A stretch of DNA of 64,000 bases, from positions 1,488,001 through 1,552,000 of the forward strand of contig NC_017583.1 of the NCBI RefSeq assembly GCF_000184345.1, given 5' to 3'. Each line of letters begins with the position of its first letter. Position 1 is the first letter of the stretch. The notes beneath the pieces were generated by a model. The model ran no database searches and had not been told where the DNA came from. It saw only the letters and a program-made list of their open reading frames with translations. Source of the stretch: Spirochaeta thermophila DSM 6578 (lineage in GTDB: Bacteria > Spirochaetota > Spirochaetia > Winmispirales > Winmispiraceae). Made by a program: the position numbers and the translations under genes. Positions 8,712 to 58,904 of the stretch are shown piece after piece.

Positions 8712-8723
8712 CCGCCCTCCTGA

Positions 8724-11456: not shown

Positions 11457-12457
11457 ACGTTCCCTCCTTCCACGATGTCTGTCTCTCTCCTTCTCTTCAT
11501 AAAGGCGATGAACTCGGGGATCACGATGGCCACGATGAGGAGCGCACCGGTCACCAGGTTCATGACCCGACCCGGTACGTTCATGAGGCCCATCCCGAAT
11601 CGTATGAATCCTATCACGAAACTGGCGATCACCACACCCGGAATCCCACCGAATCCGCCGGTGATCGCCACCCCACCCAGCACGGCGATGGTGATCGCCT
11701 CGAGCTCGAAGCCTTGGGCGATGTTCGGTCGGGTGGAGAGTATCCTGCTCGTGAGCAACACGGAGGAAATGCCCGAGAAGAGCCCGTTGAGGGTGAAGAC
11801 CGCGAACTTGACCCGCTTCGCCGGTATACCGGAGAACACAGCCGCGACCTCGTTACGTCCCACGGCGTAGACCATCCTCCCGAAAATCGTGTAGTGGAGC
11901 ACGAGCCCCACCACCAGGGCGAGGGCGAGAAAGACCACGAGCTGGAAGGGAACGAGCGTCCCCCCGACATACCCCTGGCCCAGCCATGCGAACTCCTCCG
12001 GATAGGTAGTGAATGCCTTGTCACCGAGGATGCCCTGGGGGATCCCCCTGAAGAACGACATGGTCCCTATGGTCACGGCGATCGCCGGGATCCTCAGGTA
12101 GCCCACGAGGAACCCGTTGAGCATGCCGGCCACCGTGCCGACCAGGAGCCCCACGAGCACGATCACAGGGACGGGAGCTCCATATGAGGCCACCAATCCC
12201 ATACAGAAAGAGGAGAGGGCCACGATCGACCCCACCGAGATGTCGATGGACCCCGTGATGATCACCAAGGCCATCGAGAGGGCGATGATGGACTTCTCCG
12301 TGAAATTGAAGGTGGTATTGAAGAGATTACGGACATCCCAGAAATACGGACTCAGGATGCCGTTCACCACCATGATGGTGAGAAGGAGGATGGAGAGGAT
12401 GACCTCCCATCTCTGGAGCACGGCTCCGATGCGAATTCCCTGTCGCACGTTCTTCAT
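11453..12457 (-). CDS. rhaQ: Rhamnose ABC transporter permease
   Basis: A 334-residue inner-membrane permease of the CUT2 (RbsC/AraH) class, with roughly eight to ten hydrophobic segments. The family signature AAVFSGIPAKRVKFAVFTLNGLFSG appears in the cytoplasmic loop, and AVLGGVAITGGFGG near residue 270. It is one of two different CUT2 permeases in tandem, as in the RhaSTPQ rhamnose system. GGAGG supports the ATG; 4-base overlaps on both sides indicate translational coupling. Which of the two is RhaP and which is RhaQ is assigned by gene order. Confidence 0.88.
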   Translation of the reverse strand: MKNVRQGIRIGAVLQRWEVILSILLLTIMVVNGILSPYFWDVRNLFNTTFNFTEKSIIALSMALVIITGSIDISVGSIVALSSFCMGLVASYGAPVPVIVLVGLLVGTVAGMLNGFLVGYLRIPAIAVTIGTMSFFRGIPQGILGDKAFTTYPEEFAWLGQGYVGGTLVPFQLVVFLALALVVGLVLHYTIFGRMVYAVGRNEVAAVFSGIPAKRVKFAVFTLNGLFSGISSVLLTSRILSTRPNIAQGFELEAITIAVLGGVAITGGFGGIPGVVIASFVIGFIRFGMGLMNVPGRVMNLVTGALLIVAIVIPEFIAFMKRRRETDIVEGGNV

Positions 12458-33807: not shown

Positions 33808-35189
33808 GTCACGTACAACAGTCACTCGAGATCGCCTACATAGGAGGGGGATCCCGCGGATGGGCATGGAAGCTCATGGCGGATCTCGCACTCGAACCCG
33901 CCCTCACCGGAAGGGTCCGCCTCTACGACATCGATCAGGAGGCGGCGCGCCTCAACGAACGGATCGGCAACCGGCTCTCCAGCCGCTCCGATGTGAAGGG
34001 GAAGTGGCACTACGAGACCAGGACGAGCCTCAAGGATGCGCTCGAGGGCGTGGATGTGGTGATCATCTCCATCATGCCCGGCACCTTCAAGGAGATGGAG
34101 GTGGACGTCCATGCGCCCGAGCCCTTCGGGATCTACCAGTCGGTGGGCGACACCACGGGACCGGGCGGCCTGTTCAGGGCCCTGAGGACCATTCCGATCT
34201 ACGAAGAGTTCGCGCAGGCCATCAAGACCTGGGCGCCCAAGGCCTGGGTGATCAACTACACCAACCCCATGGCACTCTGTGTGCGGACCCTCTACGAGGT
34301 GTTCCCGGAGGTGAAGGCCTTCGGATGCTGTCATGAGGTCTTTGGAACCCAGGAACTCCTCGCCTCGATGGTGGTACACGAGGGCCTTGTCCAGGATCCT
34401 CCGCAGCGCAGGGAGATCCACATCAATGTCCTGGGGCTGAACCACTGCACATGGATCGACAGGGCTTCGTTCCGGGGGGTGGACCTCCTCCCGATGTACC
34501 GGCGCTTCGCGGAGCGTCACAGGGAGGAGGGGTTCGAGACAGGGGGCGAACGAACCTGGGAGAACGACTACTTCACGAGCGCCCACAAGGTGAAGTTCGA
34601 CCTCTTCCTGCGGTTCGGACTCATCGCAGCGGCAGGGGACAGACATCTCGCGGAGTTCTTCCCTGTATCCTGGTACTTGAAGGACCCCGAGACCGTGCGC
34701 TCCTGGAAGTTCAGTCTCACCCCGGTCTCCTGGCGGGTGGAGAATCAGAAGTCGCTCGAGGCGCGGGCGCGGAGGCTCGCCTCCGGTGAGGAAGAGGTGG
34801 AGCTCGCCCCGTCGGGAGAGGAAGGGGTCCTCATGCTGAAGGCCATCGCTGGGGTGGAGGAGACGGTGAGCAACGTGAACCTTCCCAACCGAGGACAGAT
34901 CGCCAATCTCCCGCCGGGGACGGTGGTGGAGACCAACGCCCTCTTCAGGTACGACTCGGTGCAACCCGTCCAGGCCGGGGCCCTTCCCTCTTCCCTCCTC
35001 GGTCATCTCACCCGGCATGTGGCACAACAGGAAACCATCTCGAGGGCCGGTCTCGAGCGGAACTGGGACCTCGCCTTCAGGGCCTTCCTCTCCGATCCTC
35101 TCGTAGCCCACCTTTCCCCGAGCGAGGCCGAGAGGCTCTTCTCCCTCATGCGAGAAAAACTCTCGCCCTCGATGCCTGGCTGGGAGTGA
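33804..35189 (+). CDS. lplD: Alpha-galacturonidase (GH4), LplD-like
   Basis: A 461-residue NAD- and metal-dependent glycosidase of family GH4. The Rossmann motif is IAYIGGGSRGWAWKLMADL at residues ~9-27, then LYDIDQEAARLNERIGN, IYQSVGDTTGPGGLFR, VINYTNPMALC, the metal Cys in AFGCCHEVFGTQ, and the His in VLGLNHCTWI. The match to Bacillus LplD is close along the length, so cleavage of alpha-galacturonosides is the best assignment. The true start is the ATG at 33804, overlapping the GH105 stop; the open frame continues upstream but that is inside the GH105 gene. Convergent with ligA, 7 bases away. Confidence 0.92.
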   Translation: MSHVQQSLEIAYIGGGSRGWAWKLMADLALEPALTGRVRLYDIDQEAARLNERIGNRLSSRSDVKGKWHYETRTSLKDALEGVDVVIISIMPGTFKEMEVDVHAPEPFGIYQSVGDTTGPGGLFRALRTIPIYEEFAQAIKTWAPKAWVINYTNPMALCVRTLYEVFPEVKAFGCCHEVFGTQELLASMVVHEGLVQDPPQRREIHINVLGLNHCTWIDRASFRGVDLLPMYRRFAERHREEGFETGGERTWENDYFTSAHKVKFDLFLRFGLIAAAGDRHLAEFFPVSWYLKDPETVRSWKFSLTPVSWRVENQKSLEARARRLASGEEEVELAPSGEEGVLMLKAIAGVEETVSNVNLPNRGQIANLPPGTVVETNALFRYDSVQPVQAGALPSSLLGHLTRHVAQQETISRAGLERNWDLAFRAFLSDPLVAHLSPSEAERLFSLMREKLSPSMPGWE

Positions 35190-35196
35190 GACTCCT

Positions 35197-37290
35197 TCAG
35201 GAGGAGAAGAGATCCGGTTGACGAGGGGGCTCAGATGCCTCTTGCGAGGCAGAGGGCCCCTTCTCTTTCTCATTGAAGGGGTCCACCCCCGCGGCCTTCA
35301 GCATCTCGATGAACTGGTCTTCGGAGACCAGGCGGACACCGAGGGAGCGGGCCTTCTCCAGCTTGGAGCCGGGGTTTTCGCCCACGAGGAGGTGGGTGGT
35401 CTTCGATGAGACACTGCTTACCACTTTCCCGCCGAGAGAGGCGATGAGCTCTTCGGCCTTGCTTCTGGGGGTGAAGTGCCGGAAGCTCCCGGTCACACAC
35501 CAGGCCTGGCCTTCGAAGGGGCCGCCGGAGACCACGGTAGGTCGCTCCTCCTCGAAGGAGAGGCCTGCCTTCCGGAGCTCCTCGATTTCCTTCCGCCACT
35601 CGGGGTCTCTCAGTGTCTCCATGAGCTGCCGGGCGGTCTTCTCACCTATGCCTTCGAGCCGGGTGAGGGCTTCGACATCACCTCTATCGGCGATGGTAAA
35701 GAGCCGGTCGATGCTCGTGATGCCGCCCCGTATGAGGGTCTCGACCACGCTCGGGCCTACCTCCGGGATCCCGAGGGCCACGAGCACGGTGGAGAAGGGG
35801 CGCTTCTTGCTCTCCTCGATGCCCTGGACGATCTGACTGATCTTCTTCTCCCCAAAACCGGGCTCGTCGAGGAGCTTCCAGTAGTCGAAGGTGTAGAGGT
35901 CGGGGATACGCCGGATGTAGCCCTTCTCCACGAGGAAGTCGATGGTCTCGTTCCCCAAGACACGGATGTCCATCTGTTTGGGGCTCACGAAGAACTTGAG
36001 CCTGCCCGTGATCACGGCAGGGCAGTTCCTGTTTGGACAGAAGTGGTGGGCTCCCCGGCGCTCGAGGGGAGAGCCGCACTCGGGGCAGTGTTCGGGCATG
36101 CGCCAGACCGGCACGCCCTCCTCGTTCTTCTCCACCACCTTCTCGATGGCAGGTATGACGTCCCCCCGCTTGGAGATGGCGACGAGGTCGCCGGGTGCGA
36201 GCTCGAGGGCCTGGACGTAGTCCTCGTTGTGGAGGGTGACGTTGGAGATGGTGGAACCCGAGAGCTCAACGGGCTTGAGGCGTGCAACAGGGGTGACGCG
36301 GCCGGTGCGCCCCACCTGGACGTCGATGCGGAGGAGTTCGGTCACGGCCTGTGGGGCCTCGAATTTGTAGGCGATGGCCCATCGTGGATGGTGGCCGGTG
36401 TAGCCGAGGCGTTCCCGGACATCGAGTTCGTTCACCTTGAAGACCAGGCCGTCGATCTGGTAGTCGAGGGTCGCCCGCCCGCTGCGTTCCCTCTCGATGA
36501 AGGTGCGGATGCGGGCTTCACGGTCAGGGGTTCCGGCGGGGAGGCGTTCGTGGCGCGGGTTCACCGGGAATCCCCAGTCGATGAGGTAGTCGAGGCTCTC
36601 GGTGTAGGTGGCGACCGGGAAGGGAAGGTAGCCGTCGTAGGCCAAGAAGTGGAGGGGTACCCGGGCGACCTCGGCGCTGTTCTTCCTGCGCAGTACGCCC
36701 CCTGCGAGGTTGCGGGGGTTGGCGTAGGGGACTTCCATCCGGGCGTTGATCTCGTCGAAGTACTGGAGGGGGAGGTAGACCTCACCCCGGACCACGACCT
36801 CTCCGTTTTCCGGAATGCGCAGGGGGATCTGCCTGATGGTTCTGGCGTTGGGGGTGATGTCGTTCCCCACCCTTCCGTTGCCGCGGGTGACGGCACGATC
36901 GAGGATGCCGCCCCGGTAGTAGAGCACCAGGGAGACGCCGTCGATCTTCTCTTCTATGACGAATCCGAGGGGCTTGCCTGCGGCGCGCTCGGTCTTCTCG
37001 ATCCAGGAGAGGACCTCGGTCTCGGTGTAGGCTTTGTCGAGGCTCAAGACCGGGATGGTGTGTGCGACTTCGGGGAAGTCCACGGTGAGATCGGAGCCCA
37101 CGCGCTGGATGGGGGAATCGGGGCGCCGGAGGTGGGGGAACCGTGTCTCGAGGGTCTTGAGGCGCTCGAAGAGGCTGTCGTATTCCTGGTCGGTGAGGTG
37201 GGGTCGGCCGAGGACGTAGTACTCGTAGTCCGCCCGCTGGAGGAGTTCGACGAGTCGGTCGATCTCCCTCTTGGCTTCCTGCTCGGTCAT
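35197..37290 (-). CDS. ligA: NAD-dependent DNA ligase
   Basis: A 697-residue replication/repair ligase that seals nicks using NAD+. Domains in order: NAD-binding Ia (YEYYVLGRPHLTDQEYDSLF), adenylation domain with catalytic Lys in EEKIDGVSL near residue 117, OB fold, a four-Cys zinc finger (CPECGSPLERRG...FCPNRNC near residue 410), helix-hairpin-helix repeats, and a C-terminal BRCT domain (GQAWCVTGSFRHFTPRSKAEE). The start is ambiguous: GTG at 37293 or ATG at 37290, both overlapping the upstream stop (GTGATGA), so translation is probably coupled to the RlpA-like gene. Confidence 0.96.
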   Translation of the reverse strand: MTEQEAKREIDRLVELLQRADYEYYVLGRPHLTDQEYDSLFERLKTLETRFPHLRRPDSPIQRVGSDLTVDFPEVAHTIPVLSLDKAYTETEVLSWIEKTERAAGKPLGFVIEEKIDGVSLVLYYRGGILDRAVTRGNGRVGNDITPNARTIRQIPLRIPENGEVVVRGEVYLPLQYFDEINARMEVPYANPRNLAGGVLRRKNSAEVARVPLHFLAYDGYLPFPVATYTESLDYLIDWGFPVNPRHERLPAGTPDREARIRTFIERERSGRATLDYQIDGLVFKVNELDVRERLGYTGHHPRWAIAYKFEAPQAVTELLRIDVQVGRTGRVTPVARLKPVELSGSTISNVTLHNEDYVQALELAPGDLVAISKRGDVIPAIEKVVEKNEEGVPVWRMPEHCPECGSPLERRGAHHFCPNRNCPAVITGRLKFFVSPKQMDIRVLGNETIDFLVEKGYIRRIPDLYTFDYWKLLDEPGFGEKKISQIVQGIEESKKRPFSTVLVALGIPEVGPSVVETLIRGGITSIDRLFTIADRGDVEALTRLEGIGEKTARQLMETLRDPEWRKEIEELRKAGLSFEEERPTVVSGGPFEGQAWCVTGSFRHFTPRSKAEELIASLGGKVVSSVSSKTTHLLVGENPGSKLEKARSLGVRLVSEDQFIEMLKAAGVDPFNEKEKGPSASQEASEPPRQPDLFSS

Positions 37291-39026
37291 CACCTCCCCC
37301 GCTGGATGAAGGCGTCTCTGAAGCCCTGTGCCTTGAACCAGTACAGGAGGGTGCCTCCCTCATCTTCATTGAGAGGTCCCACCAGAATGCGGTACACGGT
37401 GGTGCCGTCCGGTCGGGTGAGGGGATAGGCGACCACCGGATAGGTGGTGCGGATCCTCTGTACCAGGTGCAGGGCTGTCTGGGGGCGTGTAAATGCCCCT
37501 ATCTGGAGGTAATATGCACCTGGATCGAGGGATTCGACAAGGGGAAGGTTGGTGTCGGCCACCACAGGGGCGGGGGTGGGAGAGGGTGTGGGCGTGGGGG
37601 CGGGTGGGAGCTGCTCGATGATGCGCTCGATGGCCTCTGCTTCGGGGGTGGGGGTGGGTTCCGGGGCGACAGGGGGGCGCTCCTCTGCAGGCACGAGGGC
37701 GAGTTCCACCTCTCCTTCAGGGAGGATCGGGGTGGGGGTGGGGCCGGGAGTGGGTGGGGCCTCGGCCAGGGTGGGCTCTTCCTGGGGTACGACGAGGGCG
37801 GTGTCGGGTATGGTGGGGGGGGTGAGGGTCTCCACCAGGGCTTCATCGCGTGCAGGTGCTGCAGGTTCGAGGAGGGGTGGGGCAAGGGCGAGTGAGGGGG
37901 CATGAGGTGGTTCGGGTGCGAGCTGAGGGGACGGGACGGGAGGCGGGTCGTCGAGGGGAATGGGGGTGGGGGTGGGTGTGAGGGTGCGCGGCGGAGTGAG
38001 GGAGATGAGGGGGCTCGGTGCGGGTTCCGGGGTAGGAGTGGGGGTGGGTGGTGCGGCGACCTCAGGGGTGGGGGTGGGTTGTGGAGTGGCAGCGGCGATC
38101 TCACCGCCGGATTCAGGGAGTTCGGGTTCCTCGAGGAGTTCGATCTCGGCTTCGGAGAGGTCGAGGGTGGTCTCGGGTTCGGTGAGGAAGAGGAAGGGAT
38201 TCTCGGAACGCGGCGGGAGACGAAGGGGTTTGGAGGGGGTGCGTGAAGTGAGCTGGGTGAGAAGGGGTTCGGTGGGGGGTGCGGTGGGGGTGAGGAGGGG
38301 GACGGTGGGGATGGGGGTGGGTTCGGTGCGGGCCGGTGCGGGAGTGGGTGCGGGGGATGGGGTGGGGGTCGGGGTGGGTGCGGGGGATGGGGTGGGAACT
38401 GGTGTGGGTTCGGCGCGGGCGGGCGCAGGAGTGGGTGAGGGGGACGGCGTGAGGGACGGTGAAGGGACCGGTGTGGGCTCGGCACGGGCCGGCTGGGGGG
38501 TGGGGCCGGGGGGCGGGGAGGGCTCGAGCAGGGAGGCGGTGAGGGGAACGGAGCCGGGTTGGAGGCGCGGGGTGGGGAGAGGGGTGACGGGGGTGGGGGT
38601 GGGGGTGGGCGTGAGCGCGCTCTCGGGGATGGTGGCTCCGGGATTGAAATCGATGTCGGACGTGATTCCTGCTCCTCCGGCGGCTGCACCCGCCGTGACC
38701 CTGGACTTCTCCACCGCCCTCACCCGGGCGATGGTGCCCGAGGGGATGCCCAGGGCGCGGGCCGCATCCCCGGAGAGGAGAAGGAGGAGTCCTTCCTCTT
38801 TCAAGGGCTGGGTCACGATCACGGTGATCGTGGCACTGTTCTCGAGGTTGGTCACCTCGACCAAGGTGTTGGGAGGAAACGCGTTCGACGCAGCATAGTA
38901 TCCCCCGGAGGGGAAGTCACCGTACCGCGAGACGGTGGCGGTCCCCTGCCACACGTTCTGGGACGCCTCGCTCGTCCACGCGAAACCGCCTATGAGGATC
39001 ATGAGGAGCAGGGTTTTCCGATCCAT
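37290..39026 (-). CDS. RlpA-like/SPOR envelope protein with long Pro/Thr-rich linker
   Basis: A 578-residue exported protein. A signal peptide covers residues ~1-20 ([21 protein letters not shown]). Residues ~25-110 resemble the RlpA double-psi beta-barrel ([32 protein letters not shown]). Residues ~139-490 are a low-complexity linker of [14 protein letters not shown] and EPTPVP units. Residues ~503-578 are a SPOR domain ([23 protein letters not shown]), which binds denuded peptidoglycan glycan strands at division sites. RlpA enzymes are lytic transglycosylases; whether the catalytic residues are kept here is uncertain. AAGGAG precedes the ATG; ligA follows in overlap. Confidence 0.82.
37557..38612 (-). 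repeat. Pro/Thr-coding low-complexity repeat tract
   Basis: About 1 kb of irregular CCC/ACC-rich repeats on the minus strand encoding the linker of the RlpA/SPOR protein. The plus strand is correspondingly rich in GGGGGTG units, which opens long shadow frames on both strands. The tract could expand or contract by slippage. Confidence 0.8.
38589..38609 (+). repeat. Potential G-quadruplex
   Basis: Four G-runs (5, 5, 5 and 3 G) separated by single T residues, on the strand that is the template for the RlpA-like gene. This matches the short-loop G4 pattern; similar runs recur at about 37961. Confidence 0.55.
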
Positions 39027-39192: not shown

Positions 39193-40671
39193 ATGAGAAA
39201 GACGACGGGTTCATCACGAATCTACATCATAGGCGCAGGGCTGGCCGGTACGGCCATTGCGAAGGAGATCCAGGAGAAGGGCATCTTCGGATCGGTGGCG
39301 GCTTTTCTGGATGACGATCCCGGAAAGATCGGCACGAAACTCATGGGGGTTCCGGTGCTGGGTCCCATACGCGACGTCCTGCCCGTCCTCGGCAACAGGC
39401 CCCACGACGAGGCCCTCATCGCCATGCCCGGGGCCTCACGCATGGTCCTCAAGGGGATCTACGAGGCCCTCAAACAGGCCGGCTTCGGTCGCATCCGCAT
39501 CCTCCCCACCATATCCCAGATCCTCGACGGCGAGGCACATCTCATCCAGACAAAGGAGATAGACCCCGCCGACCTTCTCCCCCGGGAACCCCTCACCATC
39601 AATCTCTCCGAGGCCCTCAGGTACCTTCGAGGAAAGCGGGTCCTCATCACCGGCGCGGGGGGAAGCATCGGGAGTGAGCTCGCGCGCCAGCTCCTCTTCG
39701 GTGGGGTGCAGCGCCTCTACCTCCTCGGGCACGGGGAGAACAGTATCTACGAGATCGACCGGGAGCTCCGTCTCCTCCAGAAGGAAGGGGTCGGAGAGAA
39801 GGCCGCGGTGGTGCCCATCATCGGAGAGCTTCAGGACAGGGACTTCATGTTCTACATCCTCGAGCGCCTCAGGGCCGATGTGGTCTTCCACTGCGCTGCG
39901 CATAAGCACGTGCCGCTCATGGAGGCGAACCCGGTGGAGGCCATCAAGAACAACGTCTTCGGCACCAGAAACCTCGTGGACGCGGCCCGTGCCGCCGGGA
40001 CGCAACGGTTCGTTTTCGTCTCCACCGACAAAGCGGCCGATCCTGTGAGCGTGTACGGCTGTTCGAAGCGGATCGCCGAAGAGATCGTGCTCTCCAGCGA
40101 TGGTGAGGTCTGTGCCTACATGGTGGTCAGGTTCGGCAATGTCCTCGGATCCCGTGGGAGCATCATGCCGCTCTTCAAGGAACAGATTCTCACCGGAGGG
40201 CCCGTGACCATCACCACCCCCGGGACCACCCGCTTCTTCATGACCATACCGGAAGCGGCCTCCCTCATCCTCAAGGCGGGAGGCGTCACGGAGAAGGGAG
40301 CGCTCTTCGTCCTCGACATGGGCAAACCCATCCGGATACAGGACCTCGCCGAACAGATGATCAGATTCTACGGCTTCGAACCCCACCGTGACATCCCCAT
40401 CGAGTACATCGGTCTTCGCCCTGGAGAGAAGGAACACGAAACCCTCACCGCAGAGGACGAGGAGCTCAAGCCCACCCCCTACCCGGGGATCCTCCAGGTG
40501 GTGAGGAACGGTGGGGCGAACCTCCCGGTGGAGAGAATCGTCGAAGAGCTCCGGCCCATCTGTTTCCGGATGCCGGGAAAGGAGTACCTCTACCGGAACA
40601 GGGAGCACCTCTCTGAGGTGCTCGCGACATACTTTTCCTCCTATCGGGTGCTGGTGAGGCGTTCGGCATGA
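39193..40671 (+). CDS. Nucleotide-sugar dehydratase, CapD/FlaA1 type without membrane anchor
   Basis: A 492-residue protein with two Rossmann parts. Residues ~8-130 hold the first (RIYIIGAGLAGTAIAKEI and AFLDDDPGKIGTKLMG). Residues ~145-440 form the catalytic SDR: VLITGAGGSIGSELARQL, AAHKHVPLMEANPVEA, VFVSTDKAADPVSVYGCSKR, VVRFGNVLGSRGS, GLRPGEKEHE. The family includes UDP-GlcNAc 4,6- and 5-inverting dehydratases. WbpM/PglF proteins carry four N-terminal membrane spans that are missing here, and it keeps Tyr in YGCSK where membrane types usually have Met. GAGAGG precedes the ATG. It overlaps the aminotransferase gene by 4 bases, so both act in one amino-sugar pathway. Confidence 0.85.
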   Translation: MRKTTGSSRIYIIGAGLAGTAIAKEIQEKGIFGSVAAFLDDDPGKIGTKLMGVPVLGPIRDVLPVLGNRPHDEALIAMPGASRMVLKGIYEALKQAGFGRIRILPTISQILDGEAHLIQTKEIDPADLLPREPLTINLSEALRYLRGKRVLITGAGGSIGSELARQLLFGGVQRLYLLGHGENSIYEIDRELRLLQKEGVGEKAAVVPIIGELQDRDFMFYILERLRADVVFHCAAHKHVPLMEANPVEAIKNNVFGTRNLVDAARAAGTQRFVFVSTDKAADPVSVYGCSKRIAEEIVLSSDGEVCAYMVVRFGNVLGSRGSIMPLFKEQILTGGPVTITTPGTTRFFMTIPEAASLILKAGGVTEKGALFVLDMGKPIRIQDLAEQMIRFYGFEPHRDIPIEYIGLRPGEKEHETLTAEDEELKPTPYPGILQVVRNGGANLPVERIVEELRPICFRMPGKEYLYRNREHLSEVLATYFSSYRVLVRRSA

Positions 40672-41861
40672 GCGAGGCATCCCCGTCCTACACCATTCCG
40701 TTCGCCCGGCCCCACGTAGGGAAGGAGGAAGAAGAGGCGGTGCTCAGGGTCCTACGGAGCGGCTGGCTCACCACGGGGAAGGAGGCCCTCGCCTTCGAGG
40801 AGGAATTCGCCAAGGCAGTGGGAGTTCCTCATGCGTGCGCAGTACAGTCGGCGACCGCGGGGCTCCACCTGGCCCTCGAGGCCGTGGGTGTCCGGGAAGG
40901 GGATCTGGTGATCACCACCCCCTACACCTTCACCGCCACGGCCGAAGTCGCCCGTTACCTCGGGGCGGAGGTCCTCTTCTGCGACATCGATGAGAAGACC
41001 CTCACCATCGATCCCCGTGAAGTCGAACGTACACTGAAGGACCCCGTGGTGGCTCGAAAGGCGAAGGTCGTCGTGCCGGTGCACCTCGCAGGACGCGGGG
41101 CCCGGATGGCGGAGCTCCTCGAGATCGCACGCACCGCCGGAGTCGCGGTGGTGGAGGACGCTGCCCATGCCTTTCCGGTGGAGACTCCCCTGGGCATGCT
41201 CGGCGCCATCGGGGATCTGGGGGTCTACTCCTTCTACGCCACCAAGCCCATCACCACGGGTGAGGGGGGCATGGTGGTCACCGCGAGCGAGGTGTATGCG
41301 ACGCGTGTGAGACTCATGAGGCTCCATGGGATCGACAGGCCCGTATGGAATCGCTATCGAACGGCCGGGGCCGCGTGGTACTACGAGGTGGTGGAACCGG
41401 GATTCAAGTACAACATGCCCGACATCCTCGCCGCAATAGGCCGGGTGCAGCTCCGCAAGGCCTGGAAGCTCAGGGAGGAGAGGAAGAGGATCGCCCTCCG
41501 CTATTTGGAGGCCTTCGCAACCAGGGATTACCTCATACTCCCCGACGCCCCGGAGGAACACGCCTGGCATCTGTTCATCCTGGGGATCAGGGAGGATCTC
41601 CTCTCCATCACCCGGGACGAGTACATCGAAAAGCTCGCCCGGAGGGGTATCGGCACCTCAGTCCACTACATCCCTCTCTTCCTCATGCCCTACTACCGCA
41701 AACGCTATCACCTCTCACCGGATGATTTTCCCGTCTCCATGAGGGTGTACCGGCGGTCGTTCAGCCTTCCCCTCTATCCCGATCTCTCGGATGAAGAGGT
41801 GGACTACGTGATCCGCTCGGTCCTGGAGACAGGCGACGCCGCCTACAGGAAAAGGCCATGA
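40668..41861 (+). CDS. DegT/DnrJ/EryC1-family PLP aminotransferase
   Basis: A 397-residue sugar aminotransferase. Features: IPFARPHVGKEEEEAVLRVLRSGW at the N-terminus (split here as IPFARPHVGKEEEE and AVLRVLRSGW), SATAGLHLAL, PVHLAGRGARM, EDAAHAFP, and the PLP-binding Lys in FYATKPITTGEGGMV. These enzymes transfer an amino group to a 4-keto nucleotide sugar, the product of the dehydratase encoded just before it. Overlaps of 4 bases on both sides put it in one operon with the dehydratase and the molybdo-hydroxylase-like genes. Confidence 0.9.
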   Translation: MSEASPSYTIPFARPHVGKEEEEAVLRVLRSGWLTTGKEALAFEEEFAKAVGVPHACAVQSATAGLHLALEAVGVREGDLVITTPYTFTATAEVARYLGAEVLFCDIDEKTLTIDPREVERTLKDPVVARKAKVVVPVHLAGRGARMAELLEIARTAGVAVVEDAAHAFPVETPLGMLGAIGDLGVYSFYATKPITTGEGGMVVTASEVYATRVRLMRLHGIDRPVWNRYRTAGAAWYYEVVEPGFKYNMPDILAAIGRVQLRKAWKLREERKRIALRYLEAFATRDYLILPDAPEEHAWHLFILGIREDLLSITRDEYIEKLARRGIGTSVHYIPLFLMPYYRKRYHLSPDDFPVSMRVYRRSFSLPLYPDLSDEEVDYVIRSVLETGDAAYRKRP

Positions 41862-43861
41862 ACCTGAGGGACTTGAGAACCGTACTCACCGGAGGAGCCG
41901 AACACCCCCTGGATCTCTCGTTTCCCGGGATGCTCCACGTGGGCATCCTCAGGTCCACCAGGGCCCACGCAAAGATCAGGGAGATCCAGATTCCCCAGGA
42001 CATCCCCCCCGACATCAACATCATCCGCGCAGCCGACCTCCCCCGCCCTACCCTCACCATCCTCGATGAAGAGATCCCTCTCCTCGCGGAAGACAAGGTC
42101 TTCTATGAAGGACAACCCATCCTCCTCGTCGTCGCACCCTCCTCCCGGGAGATGAGGGAGATCCTCTCGAGGATACAGGTGACCTACGAGGAACTCCCCG
42201 CCACCATCTCATTGGAAGAAGCCCTGGGCCACCAGATCGCTCACGTCCGAACCGCCACAAGGGGTCCCTGGGAGGAGGAACCGGAGACAGAGATCATACG
42301 AGGCCGTATCCTCGTCCCGTCCGAGTCCCTGCCGCCACTCCGCGAGGAGGCCATCGTCACCCACCTCGCCGACGGAGTGCTCCACATCGCCACCACATGT
42401 CCATGGCCCTCGCTCGTCCGAGAGACCGTGGCCCGTGTATGCGGCAAGCCGTCCTCCAAGATCCACGTGAACCTCTTCAGGGAGGAACATCTCTACGATG
42501 CGGACGTCCTCACCCCGCTCCTCTGCTCCGCCTATGCGGCCTTCGTCACGTGCACAACGGGGCGCCCGTGTAGGCTGCAACTATCCCCCCACGAAATGAG
42601 CCGTTACGGCAGCAAGGCCCCCTCGGTGCTTCTCCAGTACACCGCCTGGATCGCCCGGAACGCCGTGAGGAAGGTCGACCTCCTCATCTCCATCGATGCA
42701 GGGTATATCGCGCCCTTCAGCAGGGAGATGGTCGATCGGGCCTTTTCCAGCATCCTCTCCCTCTACCGATGGAAGAGCATGCGACTCACCATACGCGCCG
42801 TCCGGACGAACCTCCTTCCCACCGGGTTCTTCGCCGGCCTGGGAGATGTCCCCATCGCCCGTGCCGTGGAGGGCATGATGAACCACCTGGCCCTCAAGGC
42901 CGGGGCCTCTCCCGAGGAGTGGAGGCTCACACACCTCCGGGGAGACCCTTCCTTCGACGCACTTCGTACTCTCGTCCGGGAAGCCACCCGAAAAGCCGAC
43001 TTTCCGCGCAAGTTCACTGTCGAGAGCATCACACCAAGAACAGAGGCTCTCCCCTTCGAACCGAGAAGAGGTACAGGTCTCGCCGTCGCAGGCCTCTGGC
43101 ACGGGTTCTTCTCGTTCCCCGAGAGGTGGCGACGTGCCGCCCTCTCCCTCTCGCTGGAGACCGACGGAACACTCGTAGTACGAAGCACCCACCTTCCACA
43201 ACATCCGGAACTGCGGGACGTCTGGATATCTCTCATCAAGGAGTACACCGGCATATCGGAAGGGAAGATCACCTTCTCGTTCGAGGGGGCCTCCGACCTC
43301 CCCGCAGGAGGTCCCTCATCCATGGGGAGAAACGTGAGGCTCTTCACCGGGCTCCTGGTGAGGGCCTGCAGAGAACTCCAGCAGAAACGATTCCGCACCC
43401 CCCTCCCCATACACCTCTCGGTCTATGCGAGAGGGACGAGGGTCAAACCCACCGCCCAAGGATATCACCTCCTTCCCCCCAGTGAAAAGGCATGGGGCGT
43501 GGGCATAGTGGAGGTGCGGGCCATCCCCCTCACCCACGTCCCTCGGATCGTGAAGATCTGGCTCTGCATCGATGCCGGACACATCCTCTCTCCCGAGGCT
43601 CTCAGGAGGGTCCTCATCCAGAACACCCTGACGGCGCTTTCGATGAGACGCTCCTCGTGGGAAAGGGATCTCTATCCCGACATCTCCCTTCCGAACATAG
43701 AGATACACTTCTTCCCCTCCCAGAACACGGTCCCCCTCCCCGCGGGCAACCTCCCCTTCGCCCTCATCCCACCCGCCCTCGATCTCGCCCTCCTCCAGCT
43801 CCATGGGGAGGGCTCCACCACCCTCATCCAGGGAGAAGAACACCATGTTGCTCACCTGTGA
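41858..43861 (+). CDS. Molybdenum-hydroxylase-like large subunit (XdhA/CoxL family), divergent
   Basis: A 667-residue protein with the layout of the large subunit of xanthine dehydrogenase-type enzymes. It has the alpha/beta hammerhead near residues 15-115 (FPGMLHVGILRSTRAHAKI, LAEDKVFYEGQPILLVVA) and molybdopterin-domain echoes (TCPWPSLVRETVARVCG, GGPSSMGRNV, PTGFFAGLGDVPIARAVEGM). It is about 80-140 residues shorter than usual. The GGGFGGK motif is not seen, and the C-terminal catalytic GxGE segment reads PAGNLPFALIPPAL, without the Glu. Partner Fe-S and FAD subunits follow. Catalysis as a molybdenum hydroxylase is therefore doubtful; the membership is clearer than the function. Confidence 0.7.
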   Translation: MNLRDLRTVLTGGAEHPLDLSFPGMLHVGILRSTRAHAKIREIQIPQDIPPDINIIRAADLPRPTLTILDEEIPLLAEDKVFYEGQPILLVVAPSSREMREILSRIQVTYEELPATISLEEALGHQIAHVRTATRGPWEEEPETEIIRGRILVPSESLPPLREEAIVTHLADGVLHIATTCPWPSLVRETVARVCGKPSSKIHVNLFREEHLYDADVLTPLLCSAYAAFVTCTTGRPCRLQLSPHEMSRYGSKAPSVLLQYTAWIARNAVRKVDLLISIDAGYIAPFSREMVDRAFSSILSLYRWKSMRLTIRAVRTNLLPTGFFAGLGDVPIARAVEGMMNHLALKAGASPEEWRLTHLRGDPSFDALRTLVREATRKADFPRKFTVESITPRTEALPFEPRRGTGLAVAGLWHGFFSFPERWRRAALSLSLETDGTLVVRSTHLPQHPELRDVWISLIKEYTGISEGKITFSFEGASDLPAGGPSSMGRNVRLFTGLLVRACRELQQKRFRTPLPIHLSVYARGTRVKPTAQGYHLLPPSEKAWGVGIVEVRAIPLTHVPRIVKIWLCIDAGHILSPEALRRVLIQNTLTALSMRRSSWERDLYPDISLPNIEIHFFPSQNTVPLPAGNLPFALIPPALDLALLQLHGEGSTTLIQGEEHHVAHL

Positions 43862-44330
43862 GCTCGATCACGTCCACCTTCAACAGGAGGTGGACCCCCT
43901 CATGGATCTGCACTCCTTCCTCAAGAGTGAACTCCGGGTCACCGCAGTGAAGGGTTCGTGCGGCAGTGGCTACTGCGGACGGTGCGGGGTGCTCATCGAC
44001 GACGTCTTCTCTCTCGCCTGTATGGTCCCCCTCTTCTCGGTACAACAGCGTCGCATCCTCACGATCGTAGGGTTCTCCTCCACCCCCGACTACGTGGATC
44101 TGGAGAAGGGATTCCACGCCGAGAAGGTCTTCCCCTGCGGCCACTGCGCCCCCTCCCGTATCCTCCTCGGCCACAGTCTCCTCGTATACGCGGAGCATCA
44201 TCAGATGGACCCCAGGGGCATAAGGGAACACGTGGCACAGTTTCCCTGCACGTGCATCACCCCCGAGGAGTATACCAGGGGCCTCGTGAAGGCCCTCCGA
44301 TTCAGGCAGAGGCGATATGGACACTACTAG
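43845..44330 (+). CDS. [2Fe-2S] iron-sulfur subunit, xanthine dehydrogenase family
   Basis: A 161-residue electron-transfer subunit. The plant-ferredoxin-like cluster is GSCGSGYCGRCGVLIDD...LAC near residues 37-60 (C-x4-C-x2-C-x11-C). The second, helical cluster site is VFPCGHCAPSRILLG and FPCTCITPEEYTRGLVKAL, equivalent to CGxC...CxC in XdhC/CoxS. Both cluster sites look intact. The ATG at 43845 has GGGAG upstream and overlaps the large-subunit gene by 17 bases. It would carry electrons from the large subunit to the FAD subunit encoded next. Confidence 0.85.
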   Translation: MLLTCELDHVHLQQEVDPLMDLHSFLKSELRVTAVKGSCGSGYCGRCGVLIDDVFSLACMVPLFSVQQRRILTIVGFSSTPDYVDLEKGFHAEKVFPCGHCAPSRILLGHSLLVYAEHHQMDPRGIREHVAQFPCTCITPEEYTRGLVKALRFRQRRYGHY

Positions 44331-45171
44331 GCACTCCGGCGTCGCCATCTACTATCCCCAAGACATTCAAGACGCCCTCCTTCTCGCCCGGAAGCGCCCC
44401 GAGGCCCTTCTCATGGCAGGGGGCACCTATCTCGCCATGAGCGACACCTGGACCCGCTTCCAGGGACCCATCATCACCCTCCAACGGGTCTCAGAACTGA
44501 GCCGGATCATCCGCACGGAACGGTATCTGGAGATAGGCGCCATGGTGAGCCAGGGCCATCTCTCCACCGTGGCCCGCGCCGTCCTCCCCCCCCTCCTCAC
44601 CCGGGCACTTCTCCTCGCAGCCCCTCCCACCGTCAGGTGGAAGGCCACCGTGGGCGGCAACCTCACCATACCCGACAGGAGCCTCGGGATCTCGCCCGCC
44701 CTCATTCTCCTCGACGCCGTGGTCGAGATCCGCACATCCACGAGGAGCAGATGGATTCCCGTCTCCGCCATCAGGAACCAGCAGGGCTTCAGCCTCCTCC
44801 ACGAAGACGAGATCCTCACCCGGATCCGCATCCCCCGAACCCCCTGGACCCACACCCACCTCTTCTCCCTCACGCCGCCCCACCGCATGGATCGCCCACT
44901 CACCCTTTACGGCCTCGCCCGGAGCGAGGGCTCACTCCTCGAGGAGATCCGATGGGCCTTCCACACCCGACACCCCTTCCCCATCCGCATGGCCGACCTG
45001 GAAGGACTCCTCTCCGGCCAACGTCTCCCCCTCTCGGAACGGGAGATGACACGCACCCTGGACGAAGCCGAGGCCCTCATCGCCCAGGAGCAGTACGGCC
45101 TCTCCCCCCACGAACAGCGGCAGGCCCTGCACCTCCTCCACACCTTCCTCCTCAACGTGAGCCACGCCTGA
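44317..45171 (+). CDS. FAD-binding subunit, xanthine dehydrogenase/CO dehydrogenase family
   Basis: A 284-residue flavoprotein subunit (CoxM/XdhB type). FAD-site segments are LLMAGGTYLAMSD near residue 33 and RWKATVGGNLTIPDRSLGISPALILLDA (in parts: ATVGGNL, SPALILLDA) near residue 108-130. The C-terminal CO_deh_flav_C domain is present but divergent. It overlaps the Fe-S gene by 14 bases with AGAGG upstream. It completes the three-subunit set. No accessory XdhC-type maturation gene is seen in the window. Confidence 0.8.
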   Translation: MDTTRHSGVAIYYPQDIQDALLLARKRPEALLMAGGTYLAMSDTWTRFQGPIITLQRVSELSRIIRTERYLEIGAMVSQGHLSTVARAVLPPLLTRALLLAAPPTVRWKATVGGNLTIPDRSLGISPALILLDAVVEIRTSTRSRWIPVSAIRNQQGFSLLHEDEILTRIRIPRTPWTHTHLFSLTPPHRMDRPLTLYGLARSEGSLLEEIRWAFHTRHPFPIRMADLEGLLSGQRLPLSEREMTRTLDEAEALIAQEQYGLSPHEQRQALHLLHTFLLNVSHA

Positions 45172-45294: not shown

Positions 45295-48200
45295 ATGAGC
45301 ACCCATCCGTTCGTGCACCTCCACGTACACAGCGACTACAGCCTGCTCGACGGTTCCATCAAGACAGGGGACCTGGTCAAGAGGGTGAAGGAACTCGGCA
45401 TGGACGCCGTGGCCCTCACCGATCACGGCAACCTCTTCGGCATGATAGAGTTCTACAAGAAGGCCAGGGCGGCAGGAGTGACCCCGATCCTCGGATGCGA
45501 ATGCTACGTGGCCCCGGAATCCCGCACCCTCAAGGATCAAGACCACGCGGCCAACTACCACCTCATCCTCCTCGCCGAGAACTACACCGGTTATCTCAAT
45601 CTCCTCAAACTCGTGACCGAGAGCTACCTCACGGGGTTCTACTACAAACCCCGTATCGACGACGGGCTCCTCGCCGCACATCACGAAGGGCTCATCGCCC
45701 TGAGCTCCTGCCTCGGGGGCGAGATTCCCTCCCTCATCCTCGGCCGCCGGATCGACAAAGCCCGCGAGCGCGCCCGGTTCTACCGGGACATCTTCGGCCC
45801 CGACCGCTTCTACCTGGAACTCCAGGATCACGGCCTCTCCGAGCAGAAACGCGTCAACAAGGCCCTGGTGGAACTCTCGAAGGAGCTCGACATCCCCCTG
45901 GTGGCCACCAACGACGTACACTACCTCCTCAAGGAACACGCCGAGGCCCACGAGGTGCTTCTCTGCATCGGCACGAACAAGAAGCTCTCGGACCAGGACA
46001 GGATGCGGTTCGAGACCCAGGAGTTCTATCTCAAGTCGCCCGAGGAGATGGCCCGCCTCTTCGAGGGAATCCCCGAGGCCCTGGAGAACACCGTACGGAT
46101 CGCGGAACGCTGCGCCTTCGAGATACCATTCCCCGGCCCTCTCCTCCCCGAATACCACATCCCCGAGGGATTCGACTCGCCCGAGGCCTACCTGAGACAC
46201 CTCACCTACGAGGGCCTCAAGAAGAGGTATCACCAGATCACGCGAGAGATCCGCGAGCGGGCCGACCTCGAGCTGTCCATCATCATCCAGATGGGCTTCA
46301 CCGGATACTTCCTCATCGTGTGGGACTTCGTACATTTCGCAAAGGAACAGGGCATCCCCGTGGGTCCGGGTCGCGGATCCGGGGCCGGATCCATCGTGGC
46401 CTATGCCCTCGGCATCACCAACATCGACCCGCTCAAGTACGGTCTCCTCTTCGAGCGATTCCTCAATCCCGAACGGATCTCCATGCCGGACTTCGACATA
46501 GACTTCTGCTACGCGCGCCGCGAAGAGGTGATCGACTACGTGACCCGGAAGTATGGAAAGGATCGGGTCGCCCAGATCATCACCTTCGGGACCCTCAAAC
46601 CCAAGGCCGTGATCAAGGACGTGGCCCGGGTACTCGGGATCCCCTTCGCCGAGGCGAACGAACTCACCAAGCTCATGGGCGATGCATCATCGGTCGAGGA
46701 GGCCATCCAGAGGGAACCGAGACTCGCCCGCCTCGCCGAGGAGGACGAGACCTACACGCGCCTCTTCCAGATAGGCTCGGTGCTCCAGGGCCTCAGCCGT
46801 CACGCATCCACCCATGCGGCGGGTATCGTGATCGGCCGGGAAGCCCTCACCAACTACGTGCCCCTCTACCGGGATCCCAAGACCGGCGACATCTCCACCC
46901 AGTACTCCATGGAACACCTCGAGGACTGCGGGCTCGTGAAGATGGACTTCCTCGGACTCAAGACCCTCACCCTCATCACCCACACCGAGGAGCTCGTCCG
47001 CACGCACACTCCCGACTTCGATACGGAACGCATACCAGAAGACGACGCACAGACCTTCCAGCTCCTGGCCGAGGGGAAGAGCACCTGCGTCTTCCAGTTC
47101 GAGAGTGAGGGTATGCAGAACATCCTCCGAAGGGCGAAACCGGAGAGCATCGAAGAACTCATCGCTCTCAACGCCCTCTACCGGCCCGGGCCCATGCAGT
47201 TCATCGACCAGTTCATCGAGGCGAAACAGGGCAGACGGAAGATCACCTACCCCCACCCCGACCTCGAACCCATCCTCAAGGAGACCTACGGGGTCATCGT
47301 CTACCAGGAACAGGTGATGCAGATCGCCCAGAAGATCGCGGGCTACACCCTGGGCGGAGCCGACATCCTCCGCCGGGCCATGGGGAAGAAGAAGCCCGAG
47401 GTCATGGCGAAGGAGAAGGAGAAGTTCATCAAAGGGGCGGTGGCCCAGGGCTACTCCCGCCAGTTCGCCGAGGAACTCTTCGAGCTCCTCATCCCCTTCG
47501 CAGGCTATGGGTTCAACAAGTCCCACGCCGCCGCGTACTCCGTACTCGCCTACAAGACCGCCTACCTCAAGGCCCACTATCCCGCGGAGTTCATGGCCGC
47601 GAACCTCACGAACGAGATCGGCAACCCGGACAAGCTCGCCCAATACATCGGCGAGACCAGGGCGATGGGCATAGAGGTCCTCCCTCCCGACATCAACGCC
47701 TCCGAACGCTACTTCACGGTCCGGGACGGGAAGATCGTCTACGGCCTCGTGGGCATAAAGAACGTGGGGACCGCTGCAGTGGAGGAGATCCTCGGCAAGC
47801 GGAAGGAAGGACCCTTCACCTCGTTCATCGACTTCCTTTTCCGCGTGGATCTGCGCACCGTCAACCGGAAGGTGATCGAGACATGCATCCAGGCAGGGGT
47901 CTTCGACAGCCTCCATCCCAACCGGGCGGAACTCATGCACAACCTGGAGGCCCTTCTCGCCCACGTGAACCGCATAAAGGAGCAGCAGGAGGCCTCGCAG
48001 GGCTTCCTCTTCGAGGAGACCGAAACCCAGATCCGGGAGGAGTTCCAGTTCACCCCTGTGGAAGACTGGGACACCATGGAGAAGCTCCGCTACGAGCGGG
48101 AACTTCTCGGTTTCTACTTCTCATCGCATCCCCTCGACCACCTGCGCGAGATATGGGAGAAGGGGGTGAACCTCGATCTCTCCCATCCGGAGAGGACCGA

Positions 48201-48705
48201 TCCCTCGAGGACCTACCAGCTCATGGGAGTCCTCAAGACCGTACGCGAAATCACGACCCAGAAGGGGAACCGCATGGCCTTCGGTACCATCGAGGACTAC
48301 AGAGGGAGCATCGAGGCGGTCTTCTTCCCCAACGTATACGAAGCACTCTCCTCCCCCCTCCTCCCGGACACCGTGGTCGCATGCAGGGGACGCGTGGAGA
48401 GGAACCGTGATGACTACAAGTTCATCGTGGAAGAGATGCTCGACCCGAAGGACCTGCCCCCCGTGGGCGCACAGGAAGTCCACATCAGGCTCGCAAGTCC
48501 CCAGGTACCGGAAGACCACCTCTTCAAGATCCGGGAACTCATCCTCAAGCACCGCGGCCGCTGTCAGGTGTTCCTCCACGTACCCCTCTCCTCGGGAAAA
48601 GAACAGGTGGTGAAGGCCTCCGTCCACATCACCACATCCCCTTCGAGGGATCTGATCGATCAGCTCCGGAGAGAGGAGTACGTGCGAGAGATATGGGTCC
48701 AGTGA
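45295..48705 (+). CDS. dnaE: DNA polymerase III alpha subunit
   Basis: A 1136-residue replicative polymerase. Domains in order: PHP (FVHLHVHSDYSLLDGSIK at the start), polymerase palm with GRGSGAGSIVAYALGI and catalytic MPDFDIDFCYARREEVIDYV (in parts: MPDFDIDF, CYARREE), fingers (YGVIVYQEQVMQIAQKIAGY, GYGFNKSHAAAYS), helix-hairpin-helix, and a C-terminal OB fold (YQLMGVLKTVREITTQKGN). DnaE1-type without a 3'-5' exonuclease insertion. The start is confirmed by the family's conserved N-terminus, although no Shine-Dalgarno sequence is visible. Confidence 0.97.
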   Translation: MSTHPFVHLHVHSDYSLLDGSIKTGDLVKRVKELGMDAVALTDHGNLFGMIEFYKKARAAGVTPILGCECYVAPESRTLKDQDHAANYHLILLAENYTGYLNLLKLVTESYLTGFYYKPRIDDGLLAAHHEGLIALSSCLGGEIPSLILGRRIDKARERARFYRDIFGPDRFYLELQDHGLSEQKRVNKALVELSKELDIPLVATNDVHYLLKEHAEAHEVLLCIGTNKKLSDQDRMRFETQEFYLKSPEEMARLFEGIPEALENTVRIAERCAFEIPFPGPLLPEYHIPEGFDSPEAYLRHLTYEGLKKRYHQITREIRERADLELSIIIQMGFTGYFLIVWDFVHFAKEQGIPVGPGRGSGAGSIVAYALGITNIDPLKYGLLFERFLNPERISMPDFDIDFCYARREEVIDYVTRKYGKDRVAQIITFGTLKPKAVIKDVARVLGIPFAEANELTKLMGDASSVEEAIQREPRLARLAEEDETYTRLFQIGSVLQGLSRHASTHAAGIVIGREALTNYVPLYRDPKTGDISTQYSMEHLEDCGLVKMDFLGLKTLTLITHTEELVRTHTPDFDTERIPEDDAQTFQLLAEGKSTCVFQFESEGMQNILRRAKPESIEELIALNALYRPGPMQFIDQFIEAKQGRRKITYPHPDLEPILKETYGVIVYQEQVMQIAQKIAGYTLGGADILRRAMGKKKPEVMAKEKEKFIKGAVAQGYSRQFAEELFELLIPFAGYGFNKSHAAAYSVLAYKTAYLKAHYPAEFMAANLTNEIGNPDKLAQYIGETRAMGIEVLPPDINASERYFTVRDGKIVYGLVGIKNVGTAAVEEILGKRKEGPFTSFIDFLFRVDLRTVNRKVIETCIQAGVFDSLHPNRAELMHNLEALLAHVNRIKEQQEASQGFLFEETETQIREEFQFTPVEDWDTMEKLRYERELLGFYFSSHPLDHLREIWEKGVNLDLSHPERTDPSRTYQLMGVLKTVREITTQKGNRMAFGTIEDYRGSIEAVFFPNVYEALSSPLLPDTVVACRGRVERNRDDYKFIVEEMLDPKDLPPVGAQEVHIRLASPQVPEDHLFKIRELILKHRGRCQVFLHVPLSSGKEQVVKASVHITTSPSRDLIDQLRREEYVREIWVQ

Positions 48706-55963: not shown

Positions 55964-57028
55964 ATGAGGACCAGGGAACGGCTCTCCCTTTCAGGCCTGC
56001 TTCCGGAAGAGATCTCCGAACTCCTTCCAATGGAACCTCGTTATCGAGCCATCCAGATCTTCGAATGGATCCATGCGAAACGGATCCTTTCCTTCTCCGG
56101 CATGACAACCCTCCCTTCCCGCCTGAGGGAGGAACTCTCCTCTTCGTACCACGTACGAGGCGCCACGATCCACGCACTCGTGCAGGATCCCGGAGACGAG
56201 ACCATCAAGGCCCAGGTACGCCTGCAGGATGGACAGATCGTCGAAGCCGTGGTACTCACCGACGGGAAGGGACGGAAGACCGCCTGCCTCTCCACCCAGG
56301 CGGGGTGCGCCATGGGGTGCGCCTTCTGCAAAACCGGTCAACTCGGATTCTCCAGGAACCTCACCCCCGGAGAGATCGTGGATCAATGGCTCATCCTCCA
56401 GGACACGGCCGGTCCCCTCTCGCACATCGTCTTCATGGGCATGGGGGAACCGCTCCTCAACCTCGCGAACCTCAGGAAGGCCATCTCGATACTCTCCCAT
56501 GAGCGGGGTTCCCGCCTCAGCCTCAGGAGGATCACGGTCTCCACCTGCGGTATCGTCCCGGGTATCCTCAGCCTGGCGGAAGAAGGGCCGCACGTCCGCC
56601 TCGCCTTTTCACTCACGAGCGCCCGGCCCGAGGTGAGGAAACAGCTCATGCCCGTCGAAGCACGCCACCCTCTCGACCATGTGAAGGAGGCGCTCCTCAA
56701 ATACCAGGCGGCGACCGGCAAACGCATCACCCTCGAGGTGGTGGCCATAGAGGGACTCACCTGTACCCCCGAGGAGAGCAGGGCCATCGCAGGATTCGCC
56801 GAAGGCCTCAGGGTGCTCGTGAACGTGATCCCCTGGAACCCCGTGCCCGGCCTCCCCTACCGTCCTCCCTCTCCCGCAGCCCTCTCCTCCTTCGTCTCCT
56901 CCCTCACGAAAAAGGCCCTCACGGTCACCGTCAGGTACCGCAAGGGCCAACACATCCATGGCGCATGTGGACAGCTCGGCGTCGTCACTCCTCGGAAGAC
57001 CCATCGGGAGGCAGGAGCACGGCCCTGA
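55964..57028 (+). CDS. rlmN: 23S rRNA (adenine2503-C2)-methyltransferase
   Basis: A 354-residue radical-SAM enzyme that methylates A2503 of 23S rRNA (and A37 of some tRNAs). The N-terminal domain is RYRAIQIFEWIHAKR. The cluster motif is STQAGCAMGCAFCKTG (CxxxCxxC) near residue 115; SHIVFMGMGEPLLNL and ITVSTCGIVPGI follow; the methyl-carrying Cys is in HIHGACGQLG near residue 338. The ribosome-binding site is weak. Its last 44 bases overlap the end of the convergent alaS gene. Confidence 0.95.
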   Translation: MRTRERLSLSGLLPEEISELLPMEPRYRAIQIFEWIHAKRILSFSGMTTLPSRLREELSSSYHVRGATIHALVQDPGDETIKAQVRLQDGQIVEAVVLTDGKGRKTACLSTQAGCAMGCAFCKTGQLGFSRNLTPGEIVDQWLILQDTAGPLSHIVFMGMGEPLLNLANLRKAISILSHERGSRLSLRRITVSTCGIVPGILSLAEEGPHVRLAFSLTSARPEVRKQLMPVEARHPLDHVKEALLKYQAATGKRITLEVVAIEGLTCTPEESRAIAGFAEGLRVLVNVIPWNPVPGLPYRPPSPAALSSFVSSLTKKALTVTVRYRKGQHIHGACGQLGVVTPRKTHREAGARP

Positions 57029-58796: not shown

Positions 58797-58805
58797 GGTG
58801 GTAAG

Positions 58806-58834
58806 ATAGTAATAAAACCCCCCTGCGCTGTCAA
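58806..58834 (-). promoter_or_regulatory. Promoter of alaS, apparently leaderless
   Basis: On the minus strand, consensus TTGACA and TACTAT are separated by 17 bases. Nine bases lie between the -10 box and the ATG at 58796, so the mRNA would have a leader of about 0-3 bases. No ribosome-binding site is present. Confidence 0.78.
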
Positions 58835-58875
58835 CATGAATAACACCGGCAGGAACATGATCACCCCTCTTACAC

Positions 58876-58904
58876 TTGACATGTGATCGATCTTCTGGTA
58901 TATA
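58876..58904 (+). promoter_or_regulatory. Promoter of the tRNA-Phe gene
   Basis: Consensus TTGACA and TATATA with 17-base spacing, 15 bases before the first tRNA nucleotide. Divergent from the alaS promoter 42 bases away. Confidence 0.78.

Follow-up and report, generated by a model that had tools for sequence, protein, structure and literature searches.

A spirochaete complex of the xanthine dehydrogenase type with a probably lost molybdenum cofactor site

The 64,000-nucleotide stretch of the Spirochaeta thermophila DSM 6578 genome analysed here (the window; NC_017583.1, positions 1,488,001 to 1,552,000) carries three consecutive genes for a complex of the xanthine dehydrogenase (XDH) type, comprising a large subunit, a small iron-sulphur subunit and a flavin adenine dinucleotide (FAD) subunit. 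The large subunit retains the XDH fold, but the residues that form the molybdenum cofactor (Moco) site in related enzymes have been replaced, and the loss of this site is well supported by alignment. The same loss is seen in 96 non-redundant relatives, almost all of them labelled as spirochaetes. The three genes and the positions of the former site are listed below in window coordinates, as given by the open reading frames (ORFs).

41858..43861, + strand: XDH-type large subunit, 667 amino acids (aa), Moco site apparently lost (ORF coordinates, Pfam, alignment and structure prediction)
42485..42505, + strand: place of the GGGFGGK Moco loop, now E-H-L-Y-D-A-D (columns of E. coli XdhA 234-240; scored residues E210, H211, Y213 and D214)
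42833..42835, + strand: place of the Arg in FRGFG (A-[FMY]-R-G-[FY]-G), now Ala326 (alignment column)
43205..43207, + strand: place of the Gln in GQG, now Pro450 (alignment column)
43610..43612, + strand: place of the Gln in GQxxGG, now Val585 (alignment column)
43748..43750, + strand: place of the catalytic Glu in GxGE, now Asn631, within PAGNLPFAL (alignment column and profile-profile alignment)
43845..44330, + strand: small subunit, 161 aa, with two [2Fe-2S] sites, C39/C44/C47/C59 and C98/C101/C135/C137 (cysteine pattern)
44317..45171, + strand: FAD subunit, 284 aa (Pfam FAD_binding_5, 104.2 bits; AGGT at 44416-44427 and ATVGGN at 44644-44661)

The large subunit and its partners in the window

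Eight site residues were scored in the columns of the E. coli XdhA Moco-site motifs: four in the GGGFG loop, the FRGFG Arg (bovine Arg912), one Gln each in GQG and GQxxGG, and the GxGE Glu. None of the eight is kept by the window protein, and the same holds for the seven that belong to the Moco-binding motifs GGGFGG, FRGFG, GQG and GQxxGG. The catalytic Glu is gone, as is the STQ-position Gln. An earlier reading made from the sequence alone had reported that key molybdenum-site motifs were lost, that GGGFGGK was not seen and that PAGNLPFAL stood where GxGE was expected; alignment bears out all three observations, the last with the agreement of profile-profile alignment, and the loss proved wider than that reading had noted. 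Residue-to-residue pairing in the loops is uncertain at about 19% identity, and was cross-checked using hhalign as a second method, Moco-type controls in the same alignment and column statistics, which together counter an alignment artefact at divergent loops. The column statistics drew on the 76 columns in which 25 Moco-type proteins are nearly invariant, 23 of these columns lying in motifs and 53 elsewhere. The window protein alone keeps the near-invariant residue in 4/23 motif columns versus 25/53 others (Fisher p = 0.02).

The AlphaFold2 model of the large subunit (input with 55 relatives) has a predicted local distance difference test score (pLDDT) of 86.7 and a predicted template modelling score of 0.88. 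It matches XDH across residues 12-667 (Z 33.1, root-mean-square deviation 3.0, 646 aligned residues), and Foldseek returned 1fiq_C with an E-value (E) of 1.1e-44 and TMq 0.84. This full-length match suggests that the entire XDH large-subunit architecture stands and that the change lies in the site; neither cofactor-binding loops in intact form nor a catalytic Glu at another position came to light. Pfam gives 58.7 bits for the XDH hammerhead domain and 81.7 bits for MoCoBD_1, with the second Moco domain below its cut-off (16.7 versus 27 bits). Scores against the NCBIfam XDH models TIGR02965, TIGR03196 and NF043082 are 89.5, 85.7 and 49.5 bits, respectively, versus cut-offs of 849.5, 783.65 and 780. 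The protein had been described as shorter than usual, which is correct in direction and mild in extent (667 aa versus 706 in a Clostridium tyrobutyricum homologue and 752 in E. coli XdhA).

The partner subunits look intact, as the sequence-only reading had held. All eight cluster cysteines are present in the small subunit, in a pattern corresponding to a ferredoxin-like and a helical [2Fe-2S] domain, and its AlphaFold2 model (pLDDT 93.3) matches the small subunit of aldehyde dehydrogenase (Z 19.9). Both FAD motifs are kept. The ratios of non-synonymous to synonymous substitution rates (dN/dS) against the nearest species are 0.20, 0.11 and 0.16 for the large, small and FAD genes, and selection on the three genes is purifying. 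A pseudogene or frameshift was ruled out by the open frame and dN/dS of at most 0.20. In its own genome the large-subunit protein matches itself alone.

Site loss and distribution across relatives

The large subunit was aligned with 107 relatives. For comparison, the alignment also included E. coli XdhA, 12 XDH-type paralogues encoded in spirochaete genomes and 13 Moco-type sister proteins of other phyla. Removal of one relative shorter than 550 aa and ten that were more than 95% identical to another left 96, of which 95 are labelled spirochaetes and one is unassigned. These keep zero (n = 18), one (n = 32), two (n = 44) or three (n = 2) of the eight site residues, whereas all 13 Moco-type sister proteins keep eight. 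Among the paralogues, eight residues are kept in 9/12, seven in 2/12 and three in a single truncated protein (L092, 713 aa), which was dropped before the column statistics. No protein in the aligned set falls between three and seven. A peculiarity of a single species is thus rejected, given that the loss spans 96 relatives. Three loci fetched later keep one (L185), three (L194) and, with two columns missing, six (L186, genome G234) of the eight residues; the last was rejected as a Moco-free member and is either a complete Moco-type protein or part of one.

The loss of residues is concentrated at the Moco site above chance, since the 96 relatives keep the near-invariant residue in 32% of motif columns versus 60% of others (Mann-Whitney p = 0.0007). 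Almost all of them lack the second G, the F and the fourth G in the loop, as well as the Arg, GQG and GQxxGG. Next to the Gln of the STQ site stands a Trp in 86/96 relatives, where Moco types mostly have Cys, and this Trp may help to fill the place of the pterin. Seven residues are fixed in the Moco-free group only (W183, L433, C504, R511, L516, P517 and I518; 82 to 94 of 96), with R511, L516, P517 and I518 present in 83 to 94.

The Moco-type sister family (about 680-750 aa) occurs in Clostridium, WOR-3, Marinimicrobia, other phyla and some spirochaetes (e.g., Clostridium tyrobutyricum, L162). It resembles the window protein over its full length (profile match E 7e-140, 679 columns), and its loci share the large-small-FAD gene order in 12/13 cases, the remaining one ending at a contig edge. 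Unlike the window protein, the sister family keeps every site residue and reaches 377 bits against an NCBIfam XdhA model; in the C. tyrobutyricum member, the two Pfam Moco domains are matched with 248 and 188 bits. No dehydratase or aminotransferase neighbours of the kind described below were found at the sister-family loci.

A search of 297 genomes of the class Spirochaetia with a family profile gave raw matches in 257 at E 1e-10, Moco-type paralogues included. High model scores also come from Moco-type copies, and therefore all counts here use checked loci only. Among the matches listed from this search, two contain one internal stop and none comes from family f19, whose small genomes are probably Borrelia-like, judging by their size. 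Outside the class but within the phylum, five loci (L189-L193) keep 8/8 residues and are of the Moco type. A pattern scan of about 85,000 species yielded 180 matching stretches, of which 146 encoded a relative. The best 80 of these 146 were kept: 13 are Moco-type proteins of other phyla and 67 are Moco-free, with 66 of the latter labelled as spirochaetes and the remaining one unassigned.

In a quick tree of 114 rows (19 listed rows dropped, root not tested), the Moco-free relatives form one side of a branch with support of 100. XDH enzymes elsewhere bind Moco, so that the simplest history, and a likely one, is a single loss of the site in the ancestry of the class. One relative (L067; G053:C54:86000-104000, 7678-9735) branches beside the Moco side with support of 87. 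Its large subunit keeps GQG and a GKGIGE end but neither the GGGFGG loop nor the Arg of FRGFG, and it is perhaps an early intermediate.

Genome G076, Treponema pallidum-like in its length, is a single contig of 1,139,633 bases with the order dehydratase, aminotransferase, large subunit (740 aa), small subunit (155 aa) and FAD subunit (282 aa). The large subunit (locus L183, G076:C1:78000-97000) keeps 0/8 site residues, and the small subunit (11270-11737) has lost the four cysteines of the ferredoxin domain and kept the four of CxxC...CxC. These copies are probably the same genes as TPASS_0079 and TPASS_0081. In one published annotation, TPASS_0079 and TPASS_0081 of T. pallidum are named xanthine dehydrogenase, ‘Molibdoprotein binding’ (PMC4403809). 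The G076 large subunit retains none of the site residues, and the G076 small subunit lacks four of its eight cysteines; on this evidence, the reference to molybdenum in the printed name is not justified.

Gene neighbourhood and cofactor supply

The two genes upstream of the large subunit and the gene downstream of the FAD subunit are as follows.

39193..40671, + strand: PseB/CapD-like UDP-sugar 4,6-dehydratase gene, first of the overlapping run (Pfam PF02719, 352 bits; NCBIfam PseB, 167.8 bits, below the cut-off of 407.75)
40668..41861, + strand: DegT/PseC-like sugar aminotransferase gene, with a 4-base overlap with both neighbours (PF01041, 368 bits; NCBIfam PseC, 350 bits, cut-off 423.5)
45295..48705, + strand: ORF that is probably dnaE, judging from its sequence; a common downstream neighbour among relatives

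Overlaps of 4 to 17 bases join the five genes from 39193 to 45171, which suggests that they are probably transcribed as one; promoter and terminator scans gave nothing useful. Where the available DNA suffices, the large-small-FAD order is near-universal, with the small subunit found in 118 and the FAD subunit in 114 of 121 stretches (13 of them Moco type). The dehydratase and aminotransferase genes lie upstream of the large subunit in 53/77 relatives with enough upstream DNA, and dnaE lies downstream in 33/70. Eight carriers lacking the pair next door (G018, G055, G037, G031, G005, G052, G009 and G057) have no close dehydratase copy elsewhere, the best match having 37% identity. Thus, the three-protein complex can do without the dehydratase.

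In the S. thermophila genome (one contig, 100% complete), no match was found for MoaC, the MoaA C-domain, MoeA, XdhC_CoxI or the PF00384 molybdopterin oxidoreductases. The same searches were positive in control genomes (n = 14) for MoaC, the MoaA C-domain, MoeA and PF00384 in 11 each, and for XdhC_CoxI in four. Across the class, MoaC is present in 99/297 genomes and MoeA in 87/297. Both are missing from 25 of the 42 carriers with a checked locus, and 18 of these 25 are at least 95% complete.

Elsewhere in the window, a 578-aa protein (37290-39026, - strand) has a C-terminal SPOR domain and a long low-complexity Pro/Thr-rich middle with TPTPTPTP repeats. Its ORF adjoins that at 35197-37293, whose sequence resembles an NAD-dependent DNA ligase. 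Two further ORFs, at 33822-35273 (- strand, 483 aa) and 56958-58886 (+ strand, 642 aa), have no Pfam match at E 0.001; long ORFs also occur on the opposite strand, and the two may be an unknown family or non-genes.

Possible roles of the complex

Compared with the XDH/xanthine oxidase family (e.g., bovine xanthine oxidase 1fiq and Rhodobacter capsulatus XDH 1jro), the complex has the same large-subunit fold, a small subunit with two [2Fe-2S] sites and an FAD_binding_5-type FAD subunit. It differs in the loss of the Moco-contact motifs, in scores far below the NCBIfam XDH cut-offs and in the lack of any Moco gene found. Searches of literature listings turned up no account of a Moco-free complex of the XDH type in spirochaetes. 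On balance, the three genes seem to encode a Moco-free heterotrimer derived from a molybdenum hydroxylase of the XDH type and with a redox role in this organism, a view we hold with some confidence. That the complex is Moco-free is very probable.

The sequence-only reading had proposed an electron-transfer device without molybdenum. The second part of this proposal is strongly supported, because the motif loss is family-wide, the fold is intact and no Moco biosynthesis gene was found in the genome itself, although we infer the absence of molybdenum from the protein, as well as the electron path and the acceptor. In the proposed mechanism, the large subunit of a molybdenum hydroxylase would have lost its Moco site and the complex would have been retained Moco-free since. 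FAD would be reduced by NAD(P)H or a similar reductant, and electrons would pass through the two [2Fe-2S] clusters to an acceptor at the former molybdenum pocket of the large subunit, or in the reverse direction. Such a relay is a tentative assignment of role in S. thermophila. Our estimates for the relay and for the scaffold or sensor and sugar-linked roles discussed below overlap.

Several observations weigh against a Moco-free electron relay as a general account. The catalytic-Glu column is Glu in 54/96 relatives (Asp in 14/96) and the Gln of the STQ site is kept in 75/96; part of the old site may therefore still be in use among relatives. Given the 54 relatives that retain Glu, its loss does not appear to be the key change. 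MoaC is present in 17 of the 42 checked carriers, and the FAD motifs depart from AGGT (xGGT) or xGGN in 35/90. Among 95 non-redundant small subunits (the nearest-species counts add the T. pallidum-like row to this set), all eight cluster cysteines are present in 82, the first four in 90 and the last four in 83, leaving 13 incomplete, two of which are truncated where the contig stops. These exceptions are scattered over the tree, as judged by eye from a quick FastTree drawing, and seven have all three genes (L047, L183, L038, L057, L143, L147 and L150). The most extreme, L047 (G028:C1:2503000-2521000; large subunit at 8173-10326), keeps 1/8 cluster-cysteine columns in a single-contig genome of 3.3 Mb that is 99% complete. 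Because scattered relatives have lost cluster cysteines yet keep the other two proteins, electron relay cannot be the family-wide role; it fits the window and most relatives, not all.

These losses are what would be expected if the complex were no longer mainly a redox enzyme, with the large subunit serving as a scaffold, as a sensor of a ligand or as a regulator, and with flavin and clusters retained for structure or as a redox switch. The fast divergence of the large subunits (about 25% identity) points the same way. However, retention of all eight cysteines in most small subunits is unlikely without use, and neither the clusters nor the FAD motifs have been lost in the window, which leaves this role rather unlikely. 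A place in nucleotide-sugar metabolism, where the complex would act or pass electrons together with the PseB/PseC-like pair, is suggested by the end-to-end overlap of the five genes and by the recurrence of the pair upstream in relatives, the T. pallidum-like genome included. The pair is absent upstream in 24/77, the eight tested carriers without it next door have no close dehydratase copy elsewhere, and neighbouring genes need not share a pathway; we regard this link as improbable.

The intact fold, the retained Glu and Gln and the MoaC-positive carriers would also be compatible with a large subunit that continues to bind Moco, or a pterin of another kind, by means of other residues, the cofactor being made elsewhere or taken up. 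This is very unlikely, considering the 0/8 score of the window protein, the near-complete loss of the loop residues, Arg, GQG and GQxxGG among relatives, the Trp in place of Cys beside the STQ-site Gln, and the failure to find any synthesis or XdhC-type maturation gene in the genome itself. Fast divergence and lost site residues might instead mark a decaying remnant heading to loss, which we consider hardly credible for open frames with low dN/dS that persist across the class, a 1.1-Mb genome included, and that share the group-only residues R511, L516, P517 and I518. A bolder reading, which we offer as speculation, is that almost the whole class, including the T. pallidum-like genome, converted a molybdenum hydroxylase into a complex that does without Moco and uses the former pocket for a new reaction (marked by the fixed W183, R511 and PLPI stretch), perhaps tied to amino-sugar synthesis through the two preceding genes.

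Proteins of the XDH family are routinely annotated as molybdoenzymes on fold alone. A class-wide, long-kept version that is Moco-free would correct the annotation of spirochaetes, T. pallidum included. A 1.1-Mb genome that keeps the complex with half of the iron-sulphur ligands gone raises the question of what the rest of the machine does. Such a complex would offer a natural example of a large metalloenzyme that has outlasted its own metal site.

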